Source: Burkholderia metallica (GTDB taxonomy: Bacteria > Pseudomonadota > Gammaproteobacteria > Burkholderiales > Burkholderiaceae). Taken from it: a DNA stretch of 64,000 bases. The translations under genes were made by a program, and so were the position numbers. Below, in pieces: positions 2-64,000 of this stretch. The stretch covers positions 1,302,001 to 1,366,000 of the forward strand of contig NZ_CADFDB010000001.1 of NCBI RefSeq assembly GCF_902832845.1. The letters run 5' to 3'. The notes beneath the pieces are model-generated. The model worked only from the letters and a program-made list of their open reading frames with translations, was not told the origin of the DNA and made no database searches. Each line of letters starts with the position of its first letter. Within the stretch, counting starts at the first letter, position 1.

Positions 2-1669
2 GCGGCCGACGATCTCGACAAGCGGATGCCGGCCACGCCCGAGTACACGCCGGTCAGGACGGCGCTCGCGGGCGATCGCACGATCGCCTATGCGGCGCGC
101 GGCGACATGACGAAGGCCGTTGCGACGTTCGAGACGATTCCGTCCAATGCGGAGATCTCGATCGACGCGCTGTCGGCCGTCGGCGACGCGTACCTGTACC
201 TGAGCGAACCGGGCAAGGCGAATGCCGTGTACCAGCGCGCGCTGCAACAGGCGACCGCGTCGCCGACCGACCGCGCGACCCGCGGCTTCCAGTACGGCGC
301 GCGCACGCGCCCGATCGAGCTGCGCGAAGGGCTGTTCTGGTCGTACGTCGACCAGGGGAACCCGGCGGGCGCGAAACAGGCGCTCGACGACATGGGCAAG
401 TCGCTGCCGCCGGCCAGCCAGGTCGTCAACTACGGCCCGGGGGAAAGCGACTACCTGCGCTACTACCGGCTGCGCGCGCAATACCTGATCTACACCGGCC
501 ACGTCGACGAAGGGATCGCCGCGCTCGAAGCGCTCGAGAAACAGGTGCCGTTCAACGCGGAGATCCGTGCGGCGCACGCCGACGCGGTGTCCGGCCAGTC
601 GCATCCGCGCCAGGCGATCGCGATGTATCGCGCGTCGCTGACCGATCACCCGGACAGCGTCGAGATGCTCGCGGGCCTCGGCCGCGCGTCGCTTGTAGCC
701 GACGACTACGCGAGCGCGAAGAGCGTCGACCAGACCCTGGACAACACGTTCCCGGACAGCGGCGCCGTGCGCGGCTTCAAGCGCGACTACAACGCGTACC
801 GCAGCCCCGTGTTCACGACCGACCTGAGCTTCGAGCACGGCAACAGCGCGCTGGCCGACAACAGCTTCACGTCGGACAGCTACATCTATTCGCAGCCGTT
901 CGGCGACAACTGGCGCGTGTTCTCGCATACGTTCTTCGGCTACGCGCAGACCGATGGCGGCAACCTGAGCCGCACCCGCACGGGCGTCGGCGGCGACTAC
1001 CGGCACGGGCCGCTGACCGTGCAGGGCGAAGTCACGCGCTCGCTCGGCGGGGACGGCCGAACCGGCGGGCGCGGAACGATCGCGTATGCGCTGAACGACT
1101 ACTGGACGGTCAGCGGCGACCTCGACACCAACGACAACTCGCTGCCGTGGAAAGCGTATGCCGCGCACATCTGGGGCCGCTCGGCGAACGTGTCGGTCGT
1201 CTATCGCCAGAACGACCGTCGCCAGGTCAGGCTGAGCTACGGCGTGAGCCGCTACAGCGATTCGAACCTGCACCAGGAGATCTCGGCGGGCGCCACGCAA
1301 CGCGTGTACACGAGCGCCAACCAGCTCGTCAACGTGTCGCTGGATCTCGGCACCGACAGCAACACGCGGCACGACGCCCCCTACTTCAGCCCGGGCCGCG
1401 ACTACGCGGCCGCGGCCACCGTCATGCATCAGTTAACGCTGTGGAAGAAGGGCGACCTGGGGCTGCAGCAGCGCGTGTCGGTGTCCGGCGGCGCGTACAA
1501 CGAGCGCGGCTTCGGCACCAGCGCCCTGTGGAGCGCGCGCCTCGAACATGCATGGACCTTCAAGCACGACATCACGCTGAGCTACGGCGTCGAGGTCAGC
1601 AGCCACGCGTACGACGGCCAGCACGAGCGTTCCGAAACCGGCTTCATGTCGGTCAACCTGCCGTTCTAG
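2..1669 (+). CDS. pgaA: PNAG outer-membrane export porin PgaA (5' end missing)
   Basis: C-terminal part of the outer-membrane protein that exports poly-beta-1,6-N-acetylglucosamine. The frame is open from base 2, so the true start lies before the window. The first roughly 250 visible residues are alpha-helical, TPR-like repeats rich in Ala and Leu (for example around YLIYTGHVDEGIAALEAL). The rest alternates aromatic and polar residues like a beta-barrel and ends in Phe (VNLPF), the usual outer-membrane barrel end. In the family the TPR part binds periplasmic PgaB and the barrel forms the pore. It is followed 15 bases later by pgaB, and the order pgaA-B-C-D matches the E. coli operon. Identity rests on architecture plus the operon. 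Confidence 0.93.
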   Translation, partial: AADDLDKRMPATPEYTPVRTALAGDRTIAYAARGDMTKAVATFETIPSNAEISIDALSAVGDAYLYLSEPGKANAVYQRALQQATASPTDRATRGFQYGARTRPIELREGLFWSYVDQGNPAGAKQALDDMGKSLPPASQVVNYGPGESDYLRYYRLRAQYLIYTGHVDEGIAALEALEKQVPFNAEIRAAHADAVSGQSHPRQAIAMYRASLTDHPDSVEMLAGLGRASLVADDYASAKSVDQTLDNTFPDSGAVRGFKRDYNAYRSPVFTTDLSFEHGNSALADNSFTSDSYIYSQPFGDNWRVFSHTFFGYAQTDGGNLSRTRTGVGGDYRHGPLTVQGEVTRSLGGDGRTGGRGTIAYALNDYWTVSGDLDTNDNSLPWKAYAAHIWGRSANVSVVYRQNDRRQVRLSYGVSRYSDSNLHQEISAGATQRVYTSANQLVNVSLDLGTDSNTRHDAPYFSPGRDYAAAATVMHQLTLWKKGDLGLQQRVSVSGGAYNERGFGTSALWSARLEHAWTFKHDITLSYGVEVSSHAYDGQHERSETGFMSVNLPF

Positions 1670-1684
1670 CAAGGAGAGCGCGCA

Positions 1685-3784
1685 ATGCAATCCAGACGGA
1701 CCTTCATGTGCGGATGCCTCGGCGCGTTTACCGCGTGCTCGCTGTTCCCGGGTGTGACGAAGGCCAGAATGATCGACCTGCTGCCGCCGTCCGACCCGGC
1801 CGACGGCAAGACGTTTCGCGTGATCTGCCTGCACGACGTGCGCGACAACCTGATGGCGTCGTTTTCGTCGCCGTCGCCGTCGGCGATGCTCGATCCGTTC
1901 GCGGTCGATACCGGCACGTTGACCGCGATCTTCTCGTGGCTGCAGACCAACAACTACCACACCATCACGGTCAAGCAGATCGAGGAGTCGCGGCACGGCG
2001 GCAAGCCGCTGCCGCCGCGCGCGGTGCTGCTCACGTTCGACGACGGCTTTCGCAGCCACTACACGAAGGTGCTGCCGCTGCTCGAGCGGTTCAAGTATCC
2101 GGCCGTGATGGGCATCGTCACCGCGTGGATCGATACGCCCCCCGATACGCCGATCCGCCTCAGCGACAAGGTCCAGGTGCCGCGCGACTACTTCATGTCG
2201 TGGAACGAGGTGAAAGCGCTCGGTCAGTCGAACCTCGTCGAGCTCGGCTGCCACACGCACAATCTCCATCACGGCGCGATCGCGAATCCGCAAGGCAACG
2301 AGCTGCCGGCGACGACGTCACACCTGTACCTGCCGGACCAGAAACGCTACGAGACCGACGCCGAATTCGAAGCGCGCGTGCACGACGACCTGCAGACCTG
2401 CGTGCGCCAGATCCGCGAACATACCGGCATCGTCGCCCGCTCGATGGTGTGGCCGTACGGCGCGGAAAACCAGCCCGTGCGCCAGATCTCGACGTCGCTC
2501 GGCATGGACATCCAGTTCAGCCTCGACGCCGGCCCGAACACGCCGGACGTGCCACTCGACCGGCTGCGGCGGATCCTGCTGATGTACGACGTCGACATCG
2601 GCGGGTTCGAGCGCTCGATGCGCGAGCCGGCATCGAACCGCGGCGACGTCGACGTGCCCGAGCGCACCGTGCAGGTCGATCTCGACCAGGTCTACGATCC
2701 GAACCCCGCGCGACAGGAAGAGAATCTCGGCAAGCTGATCGAACGCATCTACCGGATGCAGCCGAAATCGGTGTACCTGCAGGCGTATGCGGACCCGAAA
2801 GGCACGGGTGTGGCCGAAGCCGTGTATTTCCCGAACCGGCACCTGCCGATGCGCGCCGATCTCTTCTCGCGCGCCGCATGGCAGCTCAACACGCGCGCCA
2901 ACGTGCAGGTGTACGCATGGATGCCGGTGCTCGCGTTCCGGCCGCCGGCCGACAAGCTGCGCGCGCTCGAGGCCGTGAGCGCGTACGGCGGCGCGCCGGC
3001 CCGCGAGAACGGCACGCGCACGTTCCGGCTGAGCCCGTTCGATCCGGACGCGCGGCTGATGATCCAGCAGATCTACGAGGATCTCAGCAAGCATGCGTCG
3101 TTCAGCGGCATCCTGTTCAGCGACGACGCGGTGCTCGACGACTACGAGGATGCCGGCCGGCATGCGCAGCGCATCTACGCGCAGTGGGGGCTGCCGGCCG
3201 ACGTCGGCAAGATCCGCGAGAACCCCGACCTGATGAAGCGCTGGACCCGGCAGAAGTCGCGCTACCTGATCGACCTGACGCGCCAGCTCGAACAGGTCGT
3301 GCTCGCGCACCAGAACGTGGGCGACGTGCTGACCGCGCGCAACATCTTCGCGATGCCGGTGCTCAAGCCCGAATCGGAGGCGTGGTACGCGCAGAACTAC
3401 GACGATTTCCTCGCCGCCTACGACTACGTCGCGCTGATGGCGATGCCGTACATGGAACAGGCGAAGGACCCCGAAGGCTGGATGGACCGGCTCGTGCAGG
3501 CCGTCCGCGCGAAGAAGCTCGGGCTGCGGCGCACCGTGTTCGAGCTGCAGTCGTACGACTGGCACGCTCGCAAGGCGGTGGCGGCCGGCACGCTGCTCGC
3601 GCAGATGCGGCGGCTGCGCAGCGAGGGCGCGGTGAACTTCGGCTACTACCCGGACAACTTCCTGAACGATCAGCCGGATCTCGACGCGATGCGCGACGTG
3701 ATGTCGCTGAAGTCGCGCCTCGACCCGACCTCGATCAACGCGCTGATGCAGATGCAACCCATCCAGGGGACGAAGACGCCATGA
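1685..3784 (+). CDS. pgaB: PNAG de-N-acetylase PgaB
   Basis: 699-residue periplasmic enzyme that partly deacetylates PNAG so that it can be exported. The N-terminus is a signal peptide with a plausible lipidation Cys (FTAC), as in E. coli PgaB. A polysaccharide-deacetylase (NodB-type) domain occupies about residues 50-320: FDDG with Asp119/Asp120 and the metal-binding HTH pair His190/His192. The C-terminal half (about 330-690) is the glycoside-hydrolase-like GHL13 domain found in long PgaB proteins, with an acidic DDAVLDDYED stretch. The start has an AAGGAGA ribosome site. The stop overlaps the pgaC start by four bases (ATGA), so the genes are translationally coupled. Length equals the family's usual ~670-700. 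Confidence 0.95.
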   Translation: MQSRRTFMCGCLGAFTACSLFPGVTKARMIDLLPPSDPADGKTFRVICLHDVRDNLMASFSSPSPSAMLDPFAVDTGTLTAIFSWLQTNNYHTITVKQIEESRHGGKPLPPRAVLLTFDDGFRSHYTKVLPLLERFKYPAVMGIVTAWIDTPPDTPIRLSDKVQVPRDYFMSWNEVKALGQSNLVELGCHTHNLHHGAIANPQGNELPATTSHLYLPDQKRYETDAEFEARVHDDLQTCVRQIREHTGIVARSMVWPYGAENQPVRQISTSLGMDIQFSLDAGPNTPDVPLDRLRRILLMYDVDIGGFERSMREPASNRGDVDVPERTVQVDLDQVYDPNPARQEENLGKLIERIYRMQPKSVYLQAYADPKGTGVAEAVYFPNRHLPMRADLFSRAAWQLNTRANVQVYAWMPVLAFRPPADKLRALEAVSAYGGAPARENGTRTFRLSPFDPDARLMIQQIYEDLSKHASFSGILFSDDAVLDDYEDAGRHAQRIYAQWGLPADVGKIRENPDLMKRWTRQKSRYLIDLTRQLEQVVLAHQNVGDVLTARNIFAMPVLKPESEAWYAQNYDDFLAAYDYVALMAMPYMEQAKDPEGWMDRLVQAVRAKKLGLRRTVFELQSYDWHARKAVAAGTLLAQMRRLRSEGAVNFGYYPDNFLNDQPDLDAMRDVMSLKSRLDPTSINALMQMQPIQGTKTP

Positions 3785-38465: not shown

Positions 38466-38831
38466 TCAGCCCGCGAGCTTCTTCAGCGCGTCGAGCACCG
38501 CGTCGCCCTTGAACGGCTTCACGATCCAGCCCTTCACGCCGGCCGCCTTGCCGCGCTCCTTCATCGCCGGGCTGCTTTCGGTCGTCAGCATCACGACGTT
38601 GACCGTCGCGTTCGCCAGTTCGCCGCGGATCTTCTCGACCATCGTCAGGCCGTCCATGTTCGGCATGTTCACGTCGCTGATCACGAGGCGCACGCCGGGC
38701 GTCGCCTTGAGCTTCGCGAGCCCGTCCTTGCCGTCGACGGCCGTCGCGACGTCGAGCCCGTGATTGCGCAGGAATCCCGCGACTTCGTCGCGCACCGTGC
38801 CAGAATCGTCGACCACCAGAATCTTTGCCAT
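38466..38831 (-). CDS. CheY-like single-domain response regulator
   Basis: 121-residue receiver without output domain. Acidic pocket LVVDDSG (Asp8, Asp9), phosphoacceptor Asp53 in VISDVNMPNMDG, the conserved Thr in VVMLTTE and Lys in GWIVKPF are all present. The length is that of CheY. It is the last gene of a minus-strand run: CheA-type kinase, MCP-like protein, CheX, receiver-CheX, CheY. It is the likely target of both the kinase and the two CheX phosphatases. Output partner unknown (motor, PNAG synthase or other). Confidence 0.93.
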   Translation of the reverse strand: MAKILVVDDSGTVRDEVAGFLRNHGLDVATAVDGKDGLAKLKATPGVRLVISDVNMPNMDGLTMVEKIRGELANATVNVVMLTTESSPAMKERGKAAGVKGWIVKPFKGDAVLDALKKLAG

Positions 38832-38871
38832 GTCGTATTCCCCTTCCTTTCGTTGTTGCTGACTTCAATCG

Positions 38872-39831
38872 TCAAAACAGTTCGAGCTCGCCCGACTCGA
38901 CCATCGGCCCGACGTCCTGCACCGATTCGCGGAAATCCTCCGGCGACCAGCTCAGGCTGAACACGAAGCGCTGGTCGAGACAGACGGCGCGCCCCGATGC
39001 CGGGTCGGTCATCCGGTACTTGAAGCAGAGCTGCGGGCAATCGCCGCCGAACGAGATGAACTTCTGCTTGTGATTGACGACGAGCGGCACCTGCACCGGA
39101 TGGCGCGCGAGTGCCTCGGCGTCGCCGAGATAGCGGTTCTTGAACGCGCCCCACACGAGGTTGGTCAGCTCGCCGAGCACGCTGTTCACGTCGCGGAAAT
39201 CCGGCGCGCGGCCGGCGTCGCGCGTGCCGCCGAGCATGTCGAGCAGCGGCTGTTCGCTCGTCTGCAGCAGCATGTAGCCGCGGCACCATGCGCTTTCGAG
39301 CGCGATCAGGCTGAACACCTCGCCGAAGATGATCTGGTCGCGCACGATGCACGGCGTTTCATGCTCGATCGTCATGCCGGGAAACAGGCTGTCGATGCGC
39401 GCCTCGGTGATCTCCGAGATGCCGCGCACGAGCGCGTTCGGGTAGTCGCGGCCGAACAGGTATTCGTCGACCGCGCGCTTGAGCGGCGTCATGTCGTCGG
39501 CGACGTAGGCCGCGCACGCGACGCGTGCCAGCGCGTCCGGCAGCCCGTCGCGCGACGCGAGCGATTCGCGGCGCAGGATGATCGGCAGCTCCGGACGCAG
39601 CGCGTCGATCTGCGTCGCGATGATCGCGCTCTCGGCCGGCGAGCCGCCGTAATCCTCGGCCAGCAGGATCGCGCCGAGGTCGATGTTCGAGCGCAGCACC
39701 TTCAGCAGCCGGTTGCGCCGCACGGTCAGGCCGACCAGGTTGTGCTCGTCGCAGAAACGCTTGATCGCGTCGGCGTGCGCGCGGCTGTCGTCGAGCACGA
39801 GCACCTTGCTGACTGGCTTGTCGAGGGTCAT
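38872..39831 (-). CDS. receiver-CheX fusion phosphatase
   Basis: 319 residues. The N-terminal ~125 residues are a receiver-like domain (LVLDDSRAHA and Asp60 in LLAEDYGG), but the usual Thr and Lys switch residues are not clear, so it may be degenerate. The C-terminal part (about 140-319) is a CheX/CheC/FliY-type phosphatase: the motif Ser-x3-Glu-x2-Asn is seen as SVLGELTN. These enzymes dephosphorylate CheY-P. The chain ends SGELELF, the same six C-terminal residues as the next CheX protein. Sits 40 bases before cheY and 41 bases after the other CheX gene. Confidence 0.8.
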   Translation of the reverse strand: MTLDKPVSKVLVLDDSRAHADAIKRFCDEHNLVGLTVRRNRLLKVLRSNIDLGAILLAEDYGGSPAESAIIATQIDALRPELPIILRRESLASRDGLPDALARVACAAYVADDMTPLKRAVDEYLFGRDYPNALVRGISEITEARIDSLFPGMTIEHETPCIVRDQIIFGEVFSLIALESAWCRGYMLLQTSEQPLLDMLGGTRDAGRAPDFRDVNSVLGELTNLVWGAFKNRYLGDAEALARHPVQVPLVVNHKQKFISFGGDCPQLCFKYRMTDPASGRAVCLDQRFVFSLSWSPEDFRESVQDVGPMVESGELELF

Positions 39832-39872
39832 TTCAGGGTTCCTAAGTGTGGATCCGGGTCGATCGGGGTCGA

Positions 39873-40454
39873 TCAGAACAGTTCCAGCTCGCCGCCGGTT
39901 TCCATCACCGCGGTATCCGGCACGTGGAAATCGACCGGCGCGTTCGCGCACACGCACAGCGTCGCGCCGATCCGCACGTCGCCGTCGAGCGTCAGGTCGT
40001 AGGACGCCACGTGATCGGGGGCCAGCGCGGGCAGGTAGTCGATGCTCGCTCCGCTCAGCAGGTACGGCGTCGACATGCCCAGGTCGGGAAACGGCACGGT
40101 CAGCGCCTGGTTGATCGCGCCGCAACACAGGTTCGCCACTTCCATGAACGCGTCGGGCAGCGGCCGAGCATTGTTCGTACTTGCGGTCGCGCCGACGAAA
40201 TGGCGGCGCGTCGCGTCGTCGTCGCTGAAGCGCAGCGCGAGCAGCAGGCGGAAATGGAGCGCCGAGATCGTCAGCACGGCGACCTGTTCGGAACCCTTCT
40301 GCTTCGCGCGCGACTTCGCGTGGGCAGGATCGTGCCCGTCTTGGGCGGGGCCGGCGGCCGGACGGATGTCGCACGTGCCGCCGGACGCGAGCCGCGTGCG
40401 CGCCGCATCGAAGAAGATTCGCTCGAAGCCCGTTTTGGCCTGCGCGCTGATCAC
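39873..40454 (-). CDS. CheX-like phosphatase
   Basis: 193 residues. The CheX/CheC catalytic signature Asp-x3-Glu-x2-Asn is visible as DAFMEVAN, followed after 21 residues by Pro (STPYLL), as in that family. The N-terminal 70 residues have a polar insert (PAAGPAQDGHDPAHAKSR) of low complexity. It ends GGELELF. The GTG at 40454 overlaps the stop of the MCP-like gene (GTGA), which fixes the start and implies coupling. A much longer open frame upstream of this GTG is a shadow of the MCP-like gene. Confidence 0.82.
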   Translation of the reverse strand: MISAQAKTGFERIFFDAARTRLASGGTCDIRPAAGPAQDGHDPAHAKSRAKQKGSEQVAVLTISALHFRLLLALRFSDDDATRRHFVGATASTNNARPLPDAFMEVANLCCGAINQALTVPFPDLGMSTPYLLSGASIDYLPALAPDHVASYDLTLDGDVRIGATLCVCANAPVDFHVPDTAVMETGGELELF

Positions 40455-41197
40455 GCCGCGCCTCCTTCGATCCGCGCATGCAGTTGCCCGGCCAGCGTCT
40501 CGACGGTCGCGAGCGCCGCCGTGATCATCTTGCCGCCGGCCTGGATGTCCTGGAACGTCGCGGCCGTCACGAGATCGTTGCGGTTCAGGCTGTCGCGATA
40601 GCTGTTCGACAGTTGCTGCGAACGCGCGGCCAGCCCGCGCACCTCGCTCGCGACGATCGAGAAGCCGCGCCCGGCCGTGCCGGCGCGCGCGGCCTCGATC
40701 GACGCGTTCAGCGACACGATCGACACGTGCGCGACGATCGCCGACAGCTCCTGGTTCTTCGTGCGCATGTCGTGGTTCTGCGTGGTCAGCGAGATCATCT
40801 GCTCGTGCCAGCGCTCGAACGTGCCGGCCAGCCCGCGCAGACGCGCGGCTTCGTCGGCGATCTTCAGCACGTGCTGCGCGAGCGCCGCGCGATCGGCCGA
40901 CAGCGCCTGCAGCGCGTCGCGCTGCGCGCCGGCCGCCGACGCCTCGCGCGCCAGCGCATCCTCGAGCTGCGCTTCGCGCTGCGCCCACGCGTCGGCCGCT
41001 TCCGCATGCGCGGCCACCGCCTCCGCCGCACGCGCTTGGGCCGCGTCGAGCGCGCCGCGCAACGTGTCCGCGTCGTGCTCCAGCGCCGCGACGAGCCGCT
41101 TGAGCGTCACGCGAAACACGACCGCCGCCACGATCGCGACGACTGCACCGCCCGCCAATGCGGCGGCCACCTGAATCATCCACGCCTGCACGATCAC
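40451..41197 (-). CDS. short membrane-anchored MCP-like signalling protein
   Basis: 248 residues. One N-terminal membrane helix (IQVAAALAGGAVVAIVAAVVF) leads into a long Ala/Glu-rich coiled coil, then the hairpin tip of methyl-accepting proteins: AHVSIVSLNASIEAARAGTAGRGFSIVASEVRGLA, close to the consensus (LLALNAAIEAARAGE-GRGFAVVA). There is no periplasmic sensor domain and no HAMP domain. The GTG at 41197 is chosen for the GGAG seven bases upstream; it overlaps the kinase stop by a few bases on the other frame. It probably scaffolds the kinase encoded just upstream. Confidence 0.82.
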   Translation of the reverse strand: MIVQAWMIQVAAALAGGAVVAIVAAVVFRVTLKRLVAALEHDADTLRGALDAAQARAAEAVAAHAEAADAWAQREAQLEDALAREASAAGAQRDALQALSADRAALAQHVLKIADEAARLRGLAGTFERWHEQMISLTTQNHDMRTKNQELSAIVAHVSIVSLNASIEAARAGTAGRGFSIVASEVRGLAARSQQLSNSYRDSLNRNDLVTAATFQDIQAGGKMITAALATVETLAGQLHARIEGGAA

Positions 41198-41201
41198 GTC
41201 G

Positions 41202-43583
41202 TCACTCCGCCGCGCCGATATCCGCGCTGCGCGCATGCTCGTGCGCGATGCCCTGCGCGGCACCGTCCGCCGCGAAGCGGGCCGGCAACGACACGATCGT
41301 CTCGAACGCGCGGTACGGCGCGCCGACGCGATCGTCGGTGAAGCGCAGCGCGATGTCGCCGCCGTCGCGCTTCAGGAAGCTGCGCACCGCATCCATGCCG
41401 ACGCCGCGCCCCGACACTTCGGTCACCGTGCTCGCGGTCGAAAAACCCGGCCGGAAGATCAGCTCGGCGACCGCTTCGTCCGACAGCGCCGTTTCATCGC
41501 CGGCATCGATCCAGCCGCGCTCGCGCGCGATGCCGCGAATCCGGTCGAGCGCGAGGCCGCGGCCGTCGTCGCTCAGCACGAACCACAGCTCGCCGCCGCC
41601 CACGCCGACCGCGATGTCGATCGTGCCGGATGCCGCCTTGCCGGCCGCGCGACGCTCGTCCGACGATTCGATGCCGTGGTCCATCGAATTGCGCAGCAGA
41701 TGCATGAACACGTTCTTCAGCGTCGCGACGATTTCGCTGCGCACGCGGTGGCCGTGGCTGTCGATGTGCACGACGGGCGCCGGCTTGCCGAGCTCGGCCG
41801 CGAGCGACGGCAGCGATTCGATCACGCCGCCGAGCGCGTCGCCGATGCCCTGCGTGCCGAGCTGGATCAGCATGCGGCGCACGGCATCGCGCGCCGCGTG
41901 CCAGTCGGACGCATTCGCCGGATCGGCGCCGTCGAGCACGCGCAAGCTCTCGCGGATGTGCGCGCGTTCGACCATCATGAAGTCGGCGCCCTGCACCGCT
42001 TCGCCGCTGCGGCCGAGCGTGACCGCGTTGATCGTCGCGTAGTGCTCGACGGCCTCGCGCACGCGCGCGAGGTCCTCCATCAGCGCATCGCGGTTCCACT
42101 CGGGGCCGCCGTCCGCGCGGCGCAGCGAGTCGTACGCCTGCTCGGCTTCGTGGACGATGTTCGTCAGATGCTGCAGGCTGTACGTGCGCGCATTGCCCTT
42201 GATCGTGTGCATGTTGCGGAACAGCGCCGCGACGATCGAGTGATCGGCGCGCTCGTGCTGGCGGATCATCCGCTCGTTCTCGCTGAGGAAGCCCTTCGCG
42301 CTGTGCACGAAGTCGTGGAACTTGTCCTGGCTGATCGACAGGATCTCGCCGATCATCTCGAGGCGGCGCTGCTGCTCGCCGGCCTGCGCGGTCAGCTCGC
42401 GAATCTCGGTCACGTCGCGCACGCACAGCATCAGGCGCACGACGGTGTCGGTCTCGTCGGTGATCGCCGACCAGCTCAGGTCGAGCCACTTGTCGCGGCC
42501 GTCCGGCATCCGTTTCGCGACTTCGTTCACGAGCAGGTGCTCGTTGAACGCGAAGTTCATGCTGTCTTCGCCGAGGCACGCGTGCACGGCCGCGTCGACC
42601 TGCGAGCGCGCGTCGGCGCCGAGGTTCGAATCGTCGAACACGAGCGCCATCAGGTCGCGGCCCGCGATGTCGTTCGTCTCGAAGATGGTTTCGAGGTACG
42701 CCGAATACTCCGCATGCACGACGCCGCCTTCGACGACGGTCATAATCCCCTGCTGCATGTTCTGCAGCATCGCCTGGATGTCGGCCGTCTTCTGCTTGAG
42801 CTGCGCGGAGTTCTCCTGGATCTTCTCGATCATCCCGTTGAACGCGACGATCGAATGGCCGATTTCGTCCATCCGGCCCACCGGCACGCGGCGCGTGAAA
42901 TCCTGGCTCGTCGCGATCTCGCTCATCGCCGTCTGCATCCCGATCAGCGGGCGCGTGATCTGGCGATACAGCAGCAGGCCGAGCGCGGTCAGCAGCACGA
43001 TCACCGTGCCGGCGACGCCCGCGATCGCGGTCGCCGTCGTCGAGAGCATGCCGTTCAGCGCGCTGATCGCGTCGTCCTTCTGGCGGTTCTTCTCGACGCG
43101 CAGCGTGTCGACGATGCTTTCGAGTTCGTCGCGATACTGCGCGACGTTCGCGAACAGGTACGCCTGCGCCATCTCGGGCTTGCCGTCGGCCTTCATCTTC
43201 ACGGTGTCGTCGATCGCCGCGAAATAGTTCGCCGCGCTGTCCTTCGCCTGCGACACGAGCCCGACCTGCGCGTGGCCCACCGCCGATTTCGCCTGCACGT
43301 CGAGCGCGGCGCGCAGCGCAGCCTGCTTCGCCTTCAGCTCGTCGCGCGCCTGGGCGGCGGTGTTCGCATCGGGCGCGTAGACGAGCGTCATCGTCGCGAT
43401 CTGGATGTTCTTCACGTCGGCGACGAGATCGGCGGACGCGAGCGCGCTCGGCACGATTCCCTGGGTGACCTGACGCACGTCGGACGCACTCTTGCGGGTC
43501 TGGTACACGGCATAGATGCCGATCGCGGACAGCGCGAAGAACGTCAGGACGACTAGCAGCGTAATGCGATGACGGATGGTCAT
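41202..43583 (-). CDS. membrane-bound CheA-type sensor histidine kinase
   Basis: 793 residues. In order: membrane helix (about 8-28), four-helix-bundle MCP sensor (about 30-185), second helix (187-208), HAMP (to 265), PAS-like domain (280-400), short coiled coil, HPt domain with phospho-His459 in FRNMHTIKGNART, and a CheA-type ATPase with N box LRNSMDHGIE, SDDGRGLAL and VSGRGVGMDAVRSF. The CheW-binding P5 domain of CheA is absent: the chain stops about 25 residues after the ATPase. It thus merges an MCP receptor and a CheA kinase. First gene of the operon; a 15-base palindrome lies about 130 bases upstream. Confidence 0.88.
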   Translation of the reverse strand: MTIRHRITLLVVLTFFALSAIGIYAVYQTRKSASDVRQVTQGIVPSALASADLVADVKNIQIATMTLVYAPDANTAAQARDELKAKQAALRAALDVQAKSAVGHAQVGLVSQAKDSAANYFAAIDDTVKMKADGKPEMAQAYLFANVAQYRDELESIVDTLRVEKNRQKDDAISALNGMLSTTATAIAGVAGTVIVLLTALGLLLYRQITRPLIGMQTAMSEIATSQDFTRRVPVGRMDEIGHSIVAFNGMIEKIQENSAQLKQKTADIQAMLQNMQQGIMTVVEGGVVHAEYSAYLETIFETNDIAGRDLMALVFDDSNLGADARSQVDAAVHACLGEDSMNFAFNEHLLVNEVAKRMPDGRDKWLDLSWSAITDETDTVVRLMLCVRDVTEIRELTAQAGEQQRRLEMIGEILSISQDKFHDFVHSAKGFLSENERMIRQHERADHSIVAALFRNMHTIKGNARTYSLQHLTNIVHEAEQAYDSLRRADGGPEWNRDALMEDLARVREAVEHYATINAVTLGRSGEAVQGADFMMVERAHIRESLRVLDGADPANASDWHAARDAVRRMLIQLGTQGIGDALGGVIESLPSLAAELGKPAPVVHIDSHGHRVRSEIVATLKNVFMHLLRNSMDHGIESSDERRAAGKAASGTIDIAVGVGGGELWFVLSDDGRGLALDRIRGIARERGWIDAGDETALSDEAVAELIFRPGFSTASTVTEVSGRGVGMDAVRSFLKRDGGDIALRFTDDRVGAPYRAFETIVSLPARFAADGAAQGIAHEHARSADIGAAE

Positions 43584-46198: not shown

Positions 46199-46641
46199 CT
46201 ACGTCGCGGTCGCGCGCGCAAGCCCCCTTTCCGATCGCGAGCGCGTGCCGTCGAGCCAGTCCTCGACCTGTAGCGCGGGAACGCGTGCAAACTCACGCAC
46301 GTTGTGCGTGACGAGCACCCGACTTCGAGCGCGCGCCTGCCCTGCAATCAGCGCATCGTACGGACCGATCGGCGTTCCTGCCCGCGCTCAGTTGCGCACG
46401 AATCTCGCCGGCGTGCTGCGCATCTTCCGCATCGAACGACACCACCTCGAACTGAAGCGCCTCGACACGTGCAACGTTCGCTGCCGCTCTCCGGCTTTTG
46501 TATGCACCGTAGTAGAACTCGTGCGCGACGATCGCCGGCATGCCGAAATCCGCCGGCACGATACGTGCGCAGCCGGGCCAGCATCGCCGGCGCGCCTTTC
46601 AGGATGGCGATGACGGCATGGGTGTCCAGCAGAAATTTCAT
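46199..46641 (-). pseudogene. PIN-domain toxin gene (vapC) broken by two single-base insertions
   Basis: The reading begins MKFLLDTHAVIAILKGAPAMLARLRTY with the first PIN Asp, then needs a shift near 46567 (an extra C in the TATCGTG context) to continue as VPADFGMPAIVAHEFYYGAYKSRRAA, and another near 46380 (an extra G in GCGGGCAGG) to continue as GTPIGPYDALIAGQARARSRVLVTHNVREFARV, ending at 46199. After repair all three PIN acidic sites are present. The ATG overlaps the vapB stop (ATGA). Both shifts are +1; they may be real decay or assembly error. Only the second is in a short G run. Confidence 0.75.
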
Positions 46642-46892
46642 TCGAATACGTCGAGACCCGGACGCTCCTGAGCCGAAGGCTCGGTCGTTGCCGCGGCCTC
46701 GAAATCGGCGTCGACCGGGCCGATCAGCGGCGTCAGCCATGCCCAGTCTTGCGGAACCGGTTCGAGAATGACGGACGAGCCGTGGCGACGAATCCGGACC
46801 TCGGCCGTTTCGAAGCGGAAATCCTTCGGCAGACGCACGGCCTGCGATCCGCCATGCTTGAAAATCTTGGCAGTATCCGTCGCCGCCACCAT
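46638..46892 (-). CDS. vapB: AbrB/VapB-type antitoxin
   Basis: 84 residues. The swapped-hairpin AbrB/MazE DNA-binding region is TAKIFKHGGSQAVRLPKDFRFETAEVRIRRHGSSVIL; the C-terminal tail (residues 45-84), which in relatives blocks VapC, is acidic and Pro-rich. The gene is intact although its toxin partner is frameshifted. A perfect ATCTACA-AAA-TGTAGAT dyad lies directly before the start. Confidence 0.88.
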   Translation of the reverse strand: MVAATDTAKIFKHGGSQAVRLPKDFRFETAEVRIRRHGSSVILEPVPQDWAWLTPLIGPVDADFEAAATTEPSAQERPGLDVFE

Positions 46893-46894
46893 GT

Positions 46895-46911
46895 ATCTAC
46901 AAAATGTAGAT
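46895..46911. promoter_or_regulatory. vapB operator palindrome
   Basis: ATCTACA-AAA-TGTAGAT, a perfect 7-3-7 inverted repeat three bases before the vapB ATG. Likely autorepression site; it covers the place where a ribosome site would be, so the mRNA may be leaderless or poorly translated. Confidence 0.6.
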
Positions 46912-47089
46912 GTTTTAGTAGCGAGACGCCCCGATGACGAGTCATCGCTTCGGCCTATGCCCGACAGACAGTCGAGCGCCGTGGAGCGCCCATTCGTTCC
47001 CGTCAGGAAACAATCAATCGCCATTCGGTGATTCTCGTCGCCCGTCGCGCGCTTTAGACTGCCGGGTAACCTCCTTTCGGACCCAAGCA

Positions 47090-47773
47090 ATGACCGACGC
47101 CCTGCCGCTGACCACCGAACCCGAGTCGGGCCTCCATTACCGCCTGCGCACGGCCACCGGCCGCCCCGTTGCCCGTCTGTTGCTGCTGCATGGCGTCGGC
47201 GGCAACGAAACCAACCTGCTGAACCTCGCCGGCGTCATCGATCCGCGCGTCGAAATCGCGTTCCTGCGCGCGCCGCTCGCGTTCGGGCCCGGCCAGCACG
47301 CATGGTTTCCGGTGCGCTTCGGCCCGAACGGCCCCGAAATCGACGCGGGCCGCGCGGACGCGAGCCGCCTGCGGCTGATCACGCTGCTGCGCGCGTTGCG
47401 GGCCCGCGACGACGCGGGCGCCGCCCTGCCGACCGTGATCGCCGGCTTCAGCCAGGGCGGCATCATGAGCGCGAGCGTCGGCCTCACGTCGCCGGGCGAC
47501 GTCACAGCCTTCGCCGTGCTGTGCGGGCGCATCCTGCCCGAAATCGATCCGCTGATCGCGCCGCGCGACGCATTGCGCCCGCTGCATGCACTGATCATGC
47601 ACGGCCGGTCCGACGACAAGCTGCCCGTCGCGTGGGCCGACACCGCCGACGCGAAACTCACGGCGCTCGGCGTCGCGCACGACACGCGGTTGTATGAAGC
47701 CGGCCACGAGCTGACCGCGGAGATGGCCGGCGATTTCGGCCGATGGGTCGGCGAACGCGCGGGGCTGAACTGA
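47090..47773 (+). CDS. alpha/beta-hydrolase, phospholipase/carboxylesterase family
   Basis: 227-residue cytosolic esterase. Nucleophile Ser in GFSQGGIMS, catalytic Asp in MHGRSDDKLPV and His in YEAGHELT; oxyanion region LLLHGVGGNETNLL. This is the YpfH/carboxylesterase-2 type fold. Natural substrate unknown. No signal peptide. It stands alone, convergent with ansP. Confidence 0.9.
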   Translation: MTDALPLTTEPESGLHYRLRTATGRPVARLLLLHGVGGNETNLLNLAGVIDPRVEIAFLRAPLAFGPGQHAWFPVRFGPNGPEIDAGRADASRLRLITLLRALRARDDAGAALPTVIAGFSQGGIMSASVGLTSPGDVTAFAVLCGRILPEIDPLIAPRDALRPLHALIMHGRSDDKLPVAWADTADAKLTALGVAHDTRLYEAGHELTAEMAGDFGRWVGERAGLN

Positions 47774-61201: not shown

Positions 61202-62269
61202 ATGACCATTGACCTGACTCGCCCGCCAGGCGGCATGCCGCCCGTCGACGTGCCGGCGATGGTGCTGCTGGTCGACGACCAGACGATCGTCGCCGAAGCC
61301 GTGCGACGCGCGCTCGTCGACGAAGAAGGCATCGATTTCCACTACTGCCCGCGCTCGGACGACGCGATGGCCACCGCGATCGAGACGCGGCCGACCGTGA
61401 TCCTGCAGGATCTCGTGATGCCCGGCATCGACGGGCTGAGCCTCGTGAAAGCGTATCGCGCGAATCCGGCGACGCGCGACGTGCCGATCATCGTGCTGTC
61501 GACGCAGGAAGAGCCCGTGATCAAGAGTGCCGCGTTCGCGGCCGGCGCGAACGACTACCTCGTGAAGCTGCCCGACCGCATCGAGCTCGTCGCCCGCGTG
61601 CGCTACCACTCGCGCTCGTACATGAACCTGCTGCAGCGCGACGAGGCCTATCGCGCGCTGCGGCAATCGCAGCAGCAGTTGCTCGAAGCGAATCTCGAGC
61701 TGCGCCGCCTCACGCATTCCGACGGCCTGACCGGGCTGTCGAACCGGCGCTATCTCGACGAATACCTCGCCGCCGAATGGCGGCGCGGCACGCGCGAGCG
61801 CAGCGAGCTGTCGCTGCTGATGATCGACGTCGACAACTTCAAGCTGTACAACGACACGTACGGCCACGTGTCGGGCGACGGCGTGCTCAAGCAGATCGCG
61901 TCGACCATCGAGCGCTGCCTCGGCCAGTCGGGCGAGCTCGCCGCGCGTTTCGGCGGCGAGGAATTCGCGGTCGTGATGCCGGCCACGTCGCCGGGCGCCG
62001 CGCGGCTGCTCGGCGAGAAGATCCGCCTCGCGGTCGAGGCTCTGCGGCTGCAGCACGCGCATTCGTCGACCGGCGATTCCGTGACGATCAGCATCGGCGG
62101 CGCGAGCATCGTGCCGATGTCCGGCCTGCCGACGACCGTGCTGATCGAAGCGGCCGACCGCGCGCTCTATCGCGCGAAGCACGACGGCAAGAACCGCGTC
62201 GAGATCGATGCGCCGCCGCCGGCGCCCACGCCCACGCCCGGCGGTTTCGGCACGCCGCGCGCCGGCTGA
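61202..62269 (+). CDS. wspR: WspR-type response regulator diguanylate cyclase
   Basis: 355 residues. Receiver in about 20-145 with the phosphoacceptor in VILQDLVMPGIDG, a coiled-coil linker (YRALRQSQQQLLEANLELRRLTHSD) and a GGDEF domain with active site RFGGEEFAVV. It makes c-di-GMP when phosphorylated. The product-inhibition site seen as RxxD in Pseudomonas WspR aligns here with QSGE. The start MTIDLTRPPGGMPPVDVPAMVLLVDDQTI fits. A Pro-rich C-terminal tail (PPPAPTPTPGG) is unusual. Convergent with the GGDEF-EAL gene, 20 bases apart. Confidence 0.93.
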   Translation: MTIDLTRPPGGMPPVDVPAMVLLVDDQTIVAEAVRRALVDEEGIDFHYCPRSDDAMATAIETRPTVILQDLVMPGIDGLSLVKAYRANPATRDVPIIVLSTQEEPVIKSAAFAAGANDYLVKLPDRIELVARVRYHSRSYMNLLQRDEAYRALRQSQQQLLEANLELRRLTHSDGLTGLSNRRYLDEYLAAEWRRGTRERSELSLLMIDVDNFKLYNDTYGHVSGDGVLKQIASTIERCLGQSGELAARFGGEEFAVVMPATSPGAARLLGEKIRLAVEALRLQHAHSSTGDSVTISIGGASIVPMSGLPTTVLIEAADRALYRAKHDGKNRVEIDAPPPAPTPTPGGFGTPRAG

Positions 62270-62289
62270 ACGCCGCGCGCGCGCCGCGC

Positions 62290-64000
62290 TCACGCGGCGC
62301 CGAGCCGGCGCGCGTAGTCGTTCGGGTCCAGCGGGCGGCTGAACAGGTAGCCCTGCTGCATGTCGCAGCCGATCTGCTGCAGGAACCACGATTGCGCCTG
62401 CGTCTCGACGCCTTCGGCCGTGACCTTCATCCCGAGCGAATGCGCCATCGCGACCACGGCCTGCGTGATCGCCACCGAGTCGTGATGATCGGGCACGCCC
62501 GACACGAACGAGCGGTCGACCTTCAGGTTGTGCAGTGGAAAGCGCTTCAGGTACGCGAGCGACGAATAGCCGGTGCCGAAATCGTCGACCGAGATCCGCA
62601 CGTTCATGTCCGTGAGCGCCTCGAGCATCGGCAGCACGGTGTCCGTGTCGTTCATCAGCAGTCCTTCAGTAATTTCGAGCTCCAGCGCGGACGGATCGAG
62701 CCGCGCTTGCGCGAGGCAGCGACCGACCGATTCGACGAGCCCTTCGTGGAACTGCCGCGGCGACAGGTTGACGGCCAGCATCAGGTCGGGCGCGATCGTG
62801 CGGCGCCATTCGGCCGCCTGCCGGCACGCGGTTTCGAGCACCCACTGGCCGATCGCGACGATCTGCCCCGTATCTTCCGCGACCGGAATGAACTCCGCCG
62901 GCGACATCGGCCCGAGCTCGGGGCTCGTCCAGCGCAGCAGCGCTTCGGCGCCGACCGTGCGGCCGCTGCGCGCATCGACGACGGGCTGATACGCGAGCCG
63001 CAGCATGTCCGACGACAGCGCGCGCCGCAGCGACTGTTCGATCGCGAAGCGGCGCTGCAGCCGCAGGTTAAGCTGCGCGGTGAAGAACGTGAAGTGGTTG
63101 CGGCCGCGCTGCTTCGCGTCGTACATCGCCGAATCGGCGTTGCGCATCAGCGTGACGGCATCGTCGCCGTCGCGCGGCGCGACGCTGATGCCGATCGACA
63201 CGCCGAGCCAGTATTCGTTGTTCGCGATCGCGAACGGCTTCGCGATCGCGTCGATCACCTCGCGCGCGAGCGCCGCGAGCCGGTCGGGATCGTCGCAGTC
63301 GTCGACCAGGATCACGAATTCGTCGCCGCCGACGCGCGTGAGCGCATAGCGGCCGCCCGCGCAGGCCGCGAGCCGCGCGGCGACGCTGCGCAGCAGCGCG
63401 TCGCCGGCGTCGTGGCCGGCCGTGTCGTTGACCTTCTTGAAGCCGACCAGATCGATGAACAGGATCGCGACGCGTGCGGGGCCGGCCGCCGCATCGCGCC
63501 CGCCGAACAGCTCGCGCATGCGGTCGGCGAGCCAGCGGCGGTTGTAGAGACCCGTGAGCGCATCGCGCGTGGCCATGTAGCGCAACTGCTGCTGCGCTTC
63601 GCGCACCGGGCCGATGTCGTTGAACGACACGAGCACCGAATCGGCCTGCGTCTCGCCCGGCTTCACGATCGGCACCGCGTTGCCGCGCACCCAGATGATG
63701 TCGCCGTCCGCGAGGCCGAAGCCGACCGTGTAGTCGAGCAGCGGCGTGGCCGTCATCAGTGCGCGCCGGCTCGGCCAGTCGTCGGGCGCGATCGGCGTGC
63801 CGTCCTCGTGCAGCTTGCGCAGGATCACCGTCGACAGCCGGCGGCCGACGAGGTCGCCCTTCACGCGCATCATCCGGTTCGCGCTCGGATTGCTCGCGAC
63901 CACGACGCCGTCGCGCGACACGACGAGGATTCCTTCGTTCAGGCTGTTGACGACGAGCCGGTGATGCTCCTCGCTGCGCGCGAGCTGCCGCACCATCCGG
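62290..64000 (-). CDS. PAS-GGDEF-EAL c-di-GMP enzyme (5' end missing)
   Basis: Visible part about 570 residues; the frame continues past the window edge, so the start is not seen. In order: PAS domain (about 10-130, NEGILVVSRDGVVVASNPSANRMM), GGDEF domain with intact VGGDEFVIL and no I-site, and EAL domain with AEALLRW, EITEGLLM, DDFGTGYSSL and KVDRSFVSG. Both cyclase and phosphodiesterase sites look complete, so it may make or break c-di-GMP; the PAS domain is the likely switch. Ends with DPNDYARRLGAA. Confidence 0.92.
   Translation of the reverse strand, partial: RMVRQLARSEEHHRLVVNSLNEGILVVSRDGVVVASNPSANRMMRVKGDLVGRRLSTVILRKLHEDGTPIAPDDWPSRRALMTATPLLDYTVGFGLADGDIIWVRGNAVPIVKPGETQADSVLVSFNDIGPVREAQQQLRYMATRDALTGLYNRRWLADRMRELFGGRDAAAGPARVAILFIDLVGFKKVNDTAGHDAGDALLRSVAARLAACAGGRYALTRVGGDEFVILVDDCDDPDRLAALAREVIDAIAKPFAIANNEYWLGVSIGISVAPRDGDDAVTLMRNADSAMYDAKQRGRNHFTFFTAQLNLRLQRRFAIEQSLRRALSSDMLRLAYQPVVDARSGRTVGAEALLRWTSPELGPMSPAEFIPVAEDTGQIVAIGQWVLETACRQAAEWRRTIAPDLMLAVNLSPRQFHEGLVESVGRCLAQARLDPSALELEITEGLLMNDTDTVLPMLEALTDMNVRISVDDFGTGYSSLAYLKRFPLHNLKVDRSFVSGVPDHHDSVAITQAVVAMAHSLGMKVTAEGVETQAQSWFLQQIGCDMQQGYLFSRPLDPNDYARRLGAA

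Follow-up and report, generated by a model that had tools for sequence, protein, structure and literature searches.

A conserved five-gene module with a CheA-type receptor-kinase, an MCP-like hairpin, two CheX-like proteins and CheY in Burkholderia metallica

The minus strand of a 64,000-nt stretch of Burkholderia metallica DNA (NZ_CADFDB010000001.1; hereafter the window) carries, at positions 38466-43583, a module of five genes that is, overall, probably best explained as a stand-alone CheA-type phosphorelay with two CheX-like shut-off proteins. All five open reading frames (ORFs) are present, with intergenic gaps of 4, -4 (a GTGA overlap), 41 and 40 nt, which confirms the compact minus-strand run with small gaps or overlaps described in a first-pass annotation of this DNA. 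They encode a receptor-kinase of 793 amino acids (41202-43583), an MCP-like coiled-coil hairpin (40451-41197), CheX-like protein 1 (CX1; 39873-40454), CheX-like protein 2 (CX2; 38872-39831) and CheY, a single receiver domain (38466-38831). In the genome assembly (7.55 Mb in 37 contigs), the module lies at about 1,340,466-1,345,583 of contig C1.

In the mechanism that we propose, the membrane receptor-kinase would sense via a variable N-terminal sensor, its CheA-type ATPase would autophosphorylate His459 of the kinase's own HPt domain, and the phosphate would pass from His459 to Asp53 of the CheY encoded alongside. Through their ExxN motifs, CX1 and CX2 would dephosphorylate CheY-P, and the GELELF-type tail common to both would dock them to one partner, either CheY or the MCP-like protein, bringing the two shut-off enzymes together in one place. 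Rather than acting as a ligand receptor, the MCP-like hairpin may serve this core as a fixed scaffold or as a regulator, and a PhoB-type regulator may switch the unit on via a Pho-box-like repeat in Burkholderia and several relatives. New here are the ExxN motifs with matched tails, the degenerate receiver of CX2, the co-variation of the core (much weaker for the kinase), the Pho-box-like repeat together with a small PstS-like gene near the module in five loci, and a distinct CheY.

The gene set is more than a chance arrangement, since other genera have all five proteins as well, for the most part arranged alike. A scan with a CX2 alignment over one genome per species gave 236 relatives, the best 80 of which were taken further together with four more loci; with gene presence called by phmmer at E up to 1e-3, 78 of these 84 loci hold all five genes within the stretch examined. 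Many beta- and gammaproteobacteria carry the module, usually in the order kinase, MCP-like protein, CX1, CX2, CheY. Among named species, Burkholderia puraquae has the closest relative of CX2 (99% identity); as B. puraquae belongs to the Burkholderia cepacia complex, the host very probably does so too. Loci L095 and L098 read kinase, CX2, CheY, MCP-like protein, CX1, while L092 and L099 have two kinases and L072 and L097 carry the kinase on the opposite strand. No convincing MCP-like or CX1 gene was found in L065 and L096, even when these were rechecked with profiles; a kinase is missing from the stretch examined in L015 and L085 (the latter starting close to a contig end), and L087, at a contig end, has no CheY. 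CX2 is rare in evenly drawn samples: it is present in 12 of 349 genomes of the order, in 6 of 369 of the class (two of them matches to the CheX domain only) and in 12 of 398 of the phylum, the last being five full-length matches, six to the CheX domain only and one short match with a stop. Plasmid records, there without gene annotation, also bear the module, as does a record titled as an Akkermansia muciniphila metagenome-assembled genome (L088), in which the module's CX2 is 49% identical to a proteobacterial one and which is probably a mis-binned contig.

Pairwise distances of the MCP-like protein, CX1, CX2 and CheY correlate with one another at rho 0.67-0.78 over 44 rows, the window included, and those of the kinase with any of the other four at rho 0.23-0.34. 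In permutations, nine of the ten protein pairs beat all 999, and the pair of kinase and MCP-like protein beats 998 of 999. The distance comparison, like the conservation counts on representatives, omits L022-L047, L049 and L071; it further omits L062, L067, L072, L076, L085, L088, L091, L100 and loci lacking a gene, uses one kinase per locus where two exist and takes the kinase from residue 260 on. Our reading of these distances is that a fixed four-protein core may be served by more freely exchanged receptor-kinases.

The receptor-kinase and the two CheX-like proteins

Four Pfam domains of the kinase lie over their cut-offs within one chain, namely 4HB_MCP_1 (residues 1-161), HAMP (204-257), Hpt (447-509) and HATPase_c (621-746), and the fusion of receptor and kinase proposed in the first-pass annotation therefore holds. 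The PAS domain listed there as well reaches 17.4 bits against a cut-off of 22.6 (residues 268-391), though the same residues form a confident mixed alpha/beta domain in the AlphaFold2 model (overall predicted local distance difference test score, pLDDT, 84.1). In an alignment of 43 kinases, hand-chosen from those available and including that of the window, His459 is invariant (43/43), as are N632, D635, D673, G674, G676, G725, G727 and G729 of the ATPase, while the sensors vary: 4HB_MCP_1 is found in 18 of the 43, 7TMR-DISM in three and TarH in one, with HAMP in 32.

Several comparisons place the catalytic part with CheA. The best NCBIfam models are two CheA models, both covering the ATPase with scores far under cut-off; phmmer against the PDB leads to CheA (E 3.6e-30), and a Foldseek search with the AlphaFold2 model matches CheA P3P4 and P4 structures, the P3P4 structure 4xiv (E 8e-13) standing behind one unrelated sensor-kinase model. 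As to the dimerisation domain of CheA (P3), no Pfam H-kinase_dim is listed among the kinases, and Foldseek aligns 4xiv with a TM-score of 0.61 of the target.

The CheW-binding (P5) domain of CheA is missing from the kinase, as had been claimed. Pfam gave no CheW match in the window kinase at E up to 0.5, and CheW is not among the families listed for the 43 kinases at E up to 0.01. In fact, the last conserved ATPase residue is followed by 7-57 residues in these kinases, against the 138 positions of the CheW profile, which consequently leaves no room for a P5 domain in any of the 43. All 83 rows of the linked CheY have D8, D9, D53, T83 and K105, and there is next to no variation between MLTTE and IVKPF. 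We consider it very likely that the kinase would phosphorylate the linked CheY.

CX2 matches Pfam CheX at 35.5 bits, over the cut-off of 27; its profile finds CheX/CheC entries of the PDB at E 7.2e-7 to 6.8e-5, and its model (pLDDT 77.3) matches both receiver folds and the CheX/CheC structures 3iic, 3h2d, 6vpw and 3hzh. CX1 reaches 17.2 bits against the same cut-off (E 0.0053), and 29 of the 40 rows of its family match CheX at E up to 0.1. The ExxN motif, which we take to be the catalytic motif of CheX, is kept in every row of both proteins (CX1-E105/N108, 40/40; CX2-E221/N224, 42/42), bearing out the earlier report of two proteins with the CheX/CheC catalytic signature; the alignments, of 40 rows for CX1 and 42 each for CX2 and the MCP-like protein, were all hand-chosen from the sequences available.

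A feature overlooked earlier is that the N-terminal part of CX2 (about residues 7-125) is a receiver, and a degenerate one. With the receiver positions assigned by eye, the phosphoacceptor position is Ser in 25, Ala in 10 and Asp in 2 of 42 rows, residue 87 is Arg in 41 of 42 where receivers expect Thr or Ser, and the position expected for the receiver Lys is Tyr or Phe in all 42.

CX1 and CX2 both end in GELELF, the commonest form of the tail in either family. The pattern G-x-[LIMV]-[EDQ]-[LMFI]-[FL], followed by no more than one additional residue, closes 81 of 81 CX1 and 84 of 84 CX2 sequences. It was absent from the three stand-alone CheX relatives that we looked at, out of eight CheX-only matches, and such a tail is not known to us from any CheX protein. 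The B. metallica genome has three matches to a stricter DNA pattern, for GE-x-E-x-F-stop: CX1, CX2 and one antisense match; the third was discounted as a tail, lying antisense to an ORF that resembles, by eye, a sugar-binding transcription regulator. We note that a lone CX2 relative bearing the tail exists as well: at L017:8896-9882 lies a diverged CX2 paralogue ending in GELEFF, with no CheY, MCP-like protein or CX1 in the 20 kb examined, in a genome that also carries a full module (L016). The C-terminus of CheZ binds CheY, and because the GELELF tail is reminiscent of it we propose, by analogy and with about an even chance of being right, that the tail docks CheY or the MCP-like protein.

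From their sequences, CX1 and CX2 are likely to act as CheY-P phosphatases. Alternatively, both could be CheX-fold adaptors whose tails recruit CheY to a partner, with CheY-P decaying unaided. This would fit the weak match of CX1 to CheX, a tail conservation that nearly equals that of the catalytic motif, and the degenerate receiver of CX2, which has conserved residues of its own as an adaptor might; an adaptor would have no need of ExxN, which is found in every row of CX1 and CX2, and we regard the adaptor explanation as improbable.

The MCP-like protein, CheY and possible outputs

The MCP-like protein matches MCPsignal at 57.2 bits, over the Pfam cut-off, and has no sensor domain; an N-terminal hydrophobic stretch is present in it and in many of its relatives, not in all. 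Its C-terminal arm is very constant, with 75-84 residues past the tip glutamate in 41 of 42 rows and 97 in one. At the tip, N164, E168 and R171 are kept in 54/54, 54/54 and 53/54 representatives, whereas the QTN that comes before them in ordinary receptors is gone, with [H/Q]-aliphatic-aliphatic in its place in most cases. In the same genome, FQTN is found in 13 of 17 MCPsignal matches, and the module's protein reads AHVS. We read these sequence features as suggesting a distinct receptor-derived family. A partial MCP domain elsewhere in the genome (L120; G000:C2:618215) also has an unusual tip, with EAT instead of QTN.

A profile search found no CheW or CheR match in the window (CheB was not searched for), and the nearest CheW match lies about 293 kb from the module on the same contig, in agreement with the claim that neither is linked. 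The genome holds five CheW domains and two CheR elsewhere. Three of the CheW domains and a CheR belong to a second chemosensory cluster about 293 kb from the module (L018; G000:C1:1634000-1650000), which is by its layout presumably Wsp-like. CheW was found in all 48 module genomes searched, which were reached via 50 of the 84 loci. Because the genome has these CheW domains and CheR elsewhere, and given CheW in 48/48 genomes and an MCP-like tip that keeps several conserved residues, the earlier statement that the pathway works without arrays is not supported.

CheY was compared by eye with three receivers of the same genome. In the region from helix 4 to strand 5, the che-cluster CheY of this genome is an E. 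coli-type protein, and the module's CheY is unlike it. Among solved structures, the module's CheY matches 4h60/4hnr best (E 1.5e-25) and flagellar CheYs next (from E 4.6e-19); 4h60 is, we assume, V. cholerae CheY4. Biswas et al. (PMC3774744) report that CheY4 does not bind FliM.

The module occurs in motile, chemotactic bacteria, as FliM is present in 44 of the 48 module genomes (the four misses being records titled as metagenome assemblies) and CheW in all 48. It could thus feed flagellar chemotaxis, its MCP-like protein joining arrays via a borrowed CheW and its CheY acting on the motor. In the order sample, FliM is found in 12 of 12 CX2-positive against 226 of 337 CX2-negative genomes (p 0.009, relatedness uncorrected), and both the kept tip residues N164/E168/R171 and the rank of flagellar CheYs directly after 4h60/4hnr speak in the same direction. 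Against this stand the loss from the MCP-like tip of the QTN triad that most of the genome's own MCPsignal matches possess, the dissimilarity of the module's CheY to the che-cluster CheY, and a best match to what we assume to be CheY4, reported as a non-binder of FliM (PMC3774744). We consider a role in flagellar chemotaxis unlikely, and direct motor output by the module's CheY, judged on the CheY sequence, less likely. Of the two outputs that had been suggested, motility thus agrees with the FliM counts and disagrees with the difference between the two CheYs.

The other suggested output was poly-N-acetylglucosamine (PNAG). The window does contain a pgaA-like gene (PgaA barrel) and a pgaB-like gene (deacetylase plus GHL13) at 26-3784, probably the PNAG genes that the first-pass annotation had in view, and the module might govern them. 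They are about 34.7 kb from the module, with unrelated genes between, and no pga family is among the 25 most frequent of the 62 families of nearest neighbours at other loci (75 of 89 picked neighbours were scanned); beside the module in other genera, other families recur. A PNAG output, which we rejected on this distance and on the lack of any recurring linkage seen, is highly improbable.

The neighbouring genes did not yield a sixth conserved gene as an output, with no Pfam family having more than three members (EAL 3, CorA 3) among the 25 most frequent of 62 in the 75 neighbours scanned. Clustering of flanking ORFs from 56 loci gave a loose chain in 13 loci, eight scanned members of which were EAL/GGDEF proteins (five) and histidine kinases (three); EAL/GGDEF proteins lie in the module flanks of at least five loci. 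Two further clusters cover six loci, where they overlap module genes or are antisense-like, and five loci, respectively. Neither the EAL/GGDEF-kinase chain (13 loci) nor a small PstS-like protein (five loci; see below) is general. In the window itself, a receiver-GGDEF protein and an opposite-strand GGDEF-EAL protein are encoded at 61202-63996, about 18 kb from the module, and at 46293-47090 lies what appears by eye to be a VapBC-type pair, its toxin half apparently broken over two frames.

The promoter and the phosphate theme

Upstream of the kinase, on the minus strand, a Pho-box-like direct repeat GTCAT-N6-GTCAT (43684-43669) is followed after 11 nt by a -10-like hexamer GATAAT (43657-43652), conserved in Burkholderia, and after a further 68 nt by the kinase start codon. 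A Pho box is a direct repeat with an 11-bp period at PhoB promoters; as a yardstick, the E. coli pstS promoter fits the repeat pattern, once in 8 kb. Of the 30 Burkholderia loci, 28 have the exact repeat GTCA[TC]N6GTCA[TC]; L032 carries it outside the scanned stretch, and L047 has one mismatch. For the other genera, 46 of 54 loci were scanned, those with a long plus-strand kinase ORF, over a stretch that begins 350 bases ahead of the first base of the ORF and ends 150 bases past it. Six of the 46 (L054, L056 of Paraburkholderia phenazinium, L073, L081, L086 and L095) have the exact repeat, compared with 15 of 2150 background windows, each 500 bases long and drawn from these loci (p 2.6e-6), and 14 of 46 against 87 of 2150 have it with one mismatch allowed (p 5.5e-9), this background being unmatched for promoters and including true sites. 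Other spacings of the repeat from 0 to 14 gave no match on the module strand; on the opposite strand, one locus matched at spacing 4, one at spacing 10 and three at spacing 13, with none at spacing 6.

The simplest candidate regulator is PhoB or another member of its family. The repeat makes PhoB-family control of the module rather probable, and PhoB itself as the regulator a tentative proposal, at somewhat less than even chance. A sigma-28-type promoter (-10 part CCCGATAA) was considered and dropped, as no conserved -35 part was seen by eye. An Rfam scan at the gathering threshold gave no match, a simple sigma-70 scan gave none, and terminator-like sites number 3 against 3.8 expected.

Among the flanking ORFs of the 56 loci, the small PstS-like protein of periplasmic type recurs in five, always on the module's strand: directly before the kinase (L074:2176-2583 and L091:1658-2305), after CheY (L076:4750-5223), or about 1.45 kb before the kinase (L099:215-691 and L101:214-687). 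In four of the five, the match to the PstS family model is weak and far below its cut-off (best E 1.1e-5), two match PBP_like_2 weakly, and a search of the window and of the set of 88 loci gave no further copies. Aquabacterium fontiphilum is one of the module carriers with this PstS-like neighbour. The protein is a possible binding partner of the receptor-kinase. Polyphosphate-related neighbours comprise CYTH-CHAD proteins on the module's strand (L055:7442-8944 and L068:7028-8557) and a Ppk on the opposite strand (L086:7505-9589); with CYTH-CHAD seen twice and Ppk once, they are too few to count as linkage. Together, the PstS-like, CYTH-CHAD and Ppk neighbours fit a phosphate theme without proving one.

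Weight of the evidence and comparison with known systems

The proposed mechanism, a CheA-type kinase acting on CheY with two CheX proteins ending the signal, is well supported by sequence, and several observations count against it or parts of it. CX1 of the window falls below the Pfam CheX cut-off, an hhalign comparison of CX1 with CX2 gives a probability of 51% (though E 1.6e-4), and the CX1 tail is not strictly invariant, its first Glu sometimes being Ala, Val or Met and its last residue Leu in a few. The co-variation of the core also carries species history. The MCP-like tip keeps classical receptor residues in bacteria that all have CheW (48/48), so that contact with arrays is possible. 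As to the promoter, the copies of the repeat examined in Burkholderia lack the leading T of TGTCA, and 40 of the 46 other loci lack the exact repeat, on a comparison whose background was not matched for promoters.

Taking the phosphorelay with two CheX-like shut-off proteins further, we tentatively suggest a CheW-free chemosensory design in which the kinase would be its own receptor, a sensorless MCP hairpin its scaffold, and a tail-matched CheX pair, one member with a captured receiver, would set the lifetime of CheY-P, with a tie to phosphate starvation in Burkholderia and relatives. If such a design is real, surveys in which CheW defines a chemosensory system would miss it. With MCP-type and CheA-type parts in one conserved unit and no CheW of its own, the module shows how these parts can be rewired, and it offers a clean test of the role of an MCP hairpin without a coupling protein. 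The GELELF-type tail can be tested directly as a docking motif, and the Pho-box-like promoter suggests low phosphate as a condition under which to seek a phenotype.

We found no published description of the five-gene system in the open-licence full-text literature, in keeping with the first-pass annotation, which knew of no characterised example. Sensor histidine kinases with HAMP and PAS likewise combine a membrane sensor, HAMP, a PAS-like domain and ATPase in one chain; in the module's kinase, HPt and a CheA-type ATPase replace HisKA and HATPase. With canonical CheA/CheW/MCP/CheY systems the module shares HPt, a CheA-type ATPase, an MCP signalling domain and CheY, and it differs from them in having no CheW in the cluster, no P5 domain, a sensor fused to the kinase and no linked CheR. 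In Berry et al. 2023 (PMC10782961), CheA is marked by HATPase_c plus CheW, and receptor, CheA, CheW and CheY are described as present in every chemosensory system. The module falls outside chemosensory systems under that definition, though its parts resemble them; a survey using HATPase_c plus CheW as the mark of CheA would therefore not count it.

The Flm pathway of Comamonas testosteroni (PMC6391922) is, like the module, a betaproteobacterial chemosensory-like cluster without CheR and CheB and with a CheY-like output. It differs in its CheW-like FlmC, in the Tfp class that the paper assigns to it and in its gene content, and we rejected the identity of the two since Flm has a CheW. Among CheX-type proteins, V. 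cholerae VC0377 is named as one in PMC8789113. The CheX/CheC phosphatases, such as Borrelia CheX in complex with CheY (3hzh) and Vibrio vulnificus CheX (6vpw), have their fold in common with CX2 and the ExxN motif with both CX1 and CX2, whereas the module is set apart by two such proteins per operon, a shared GELELF-type tail and the fusion of one of them to a degenerate receiver.

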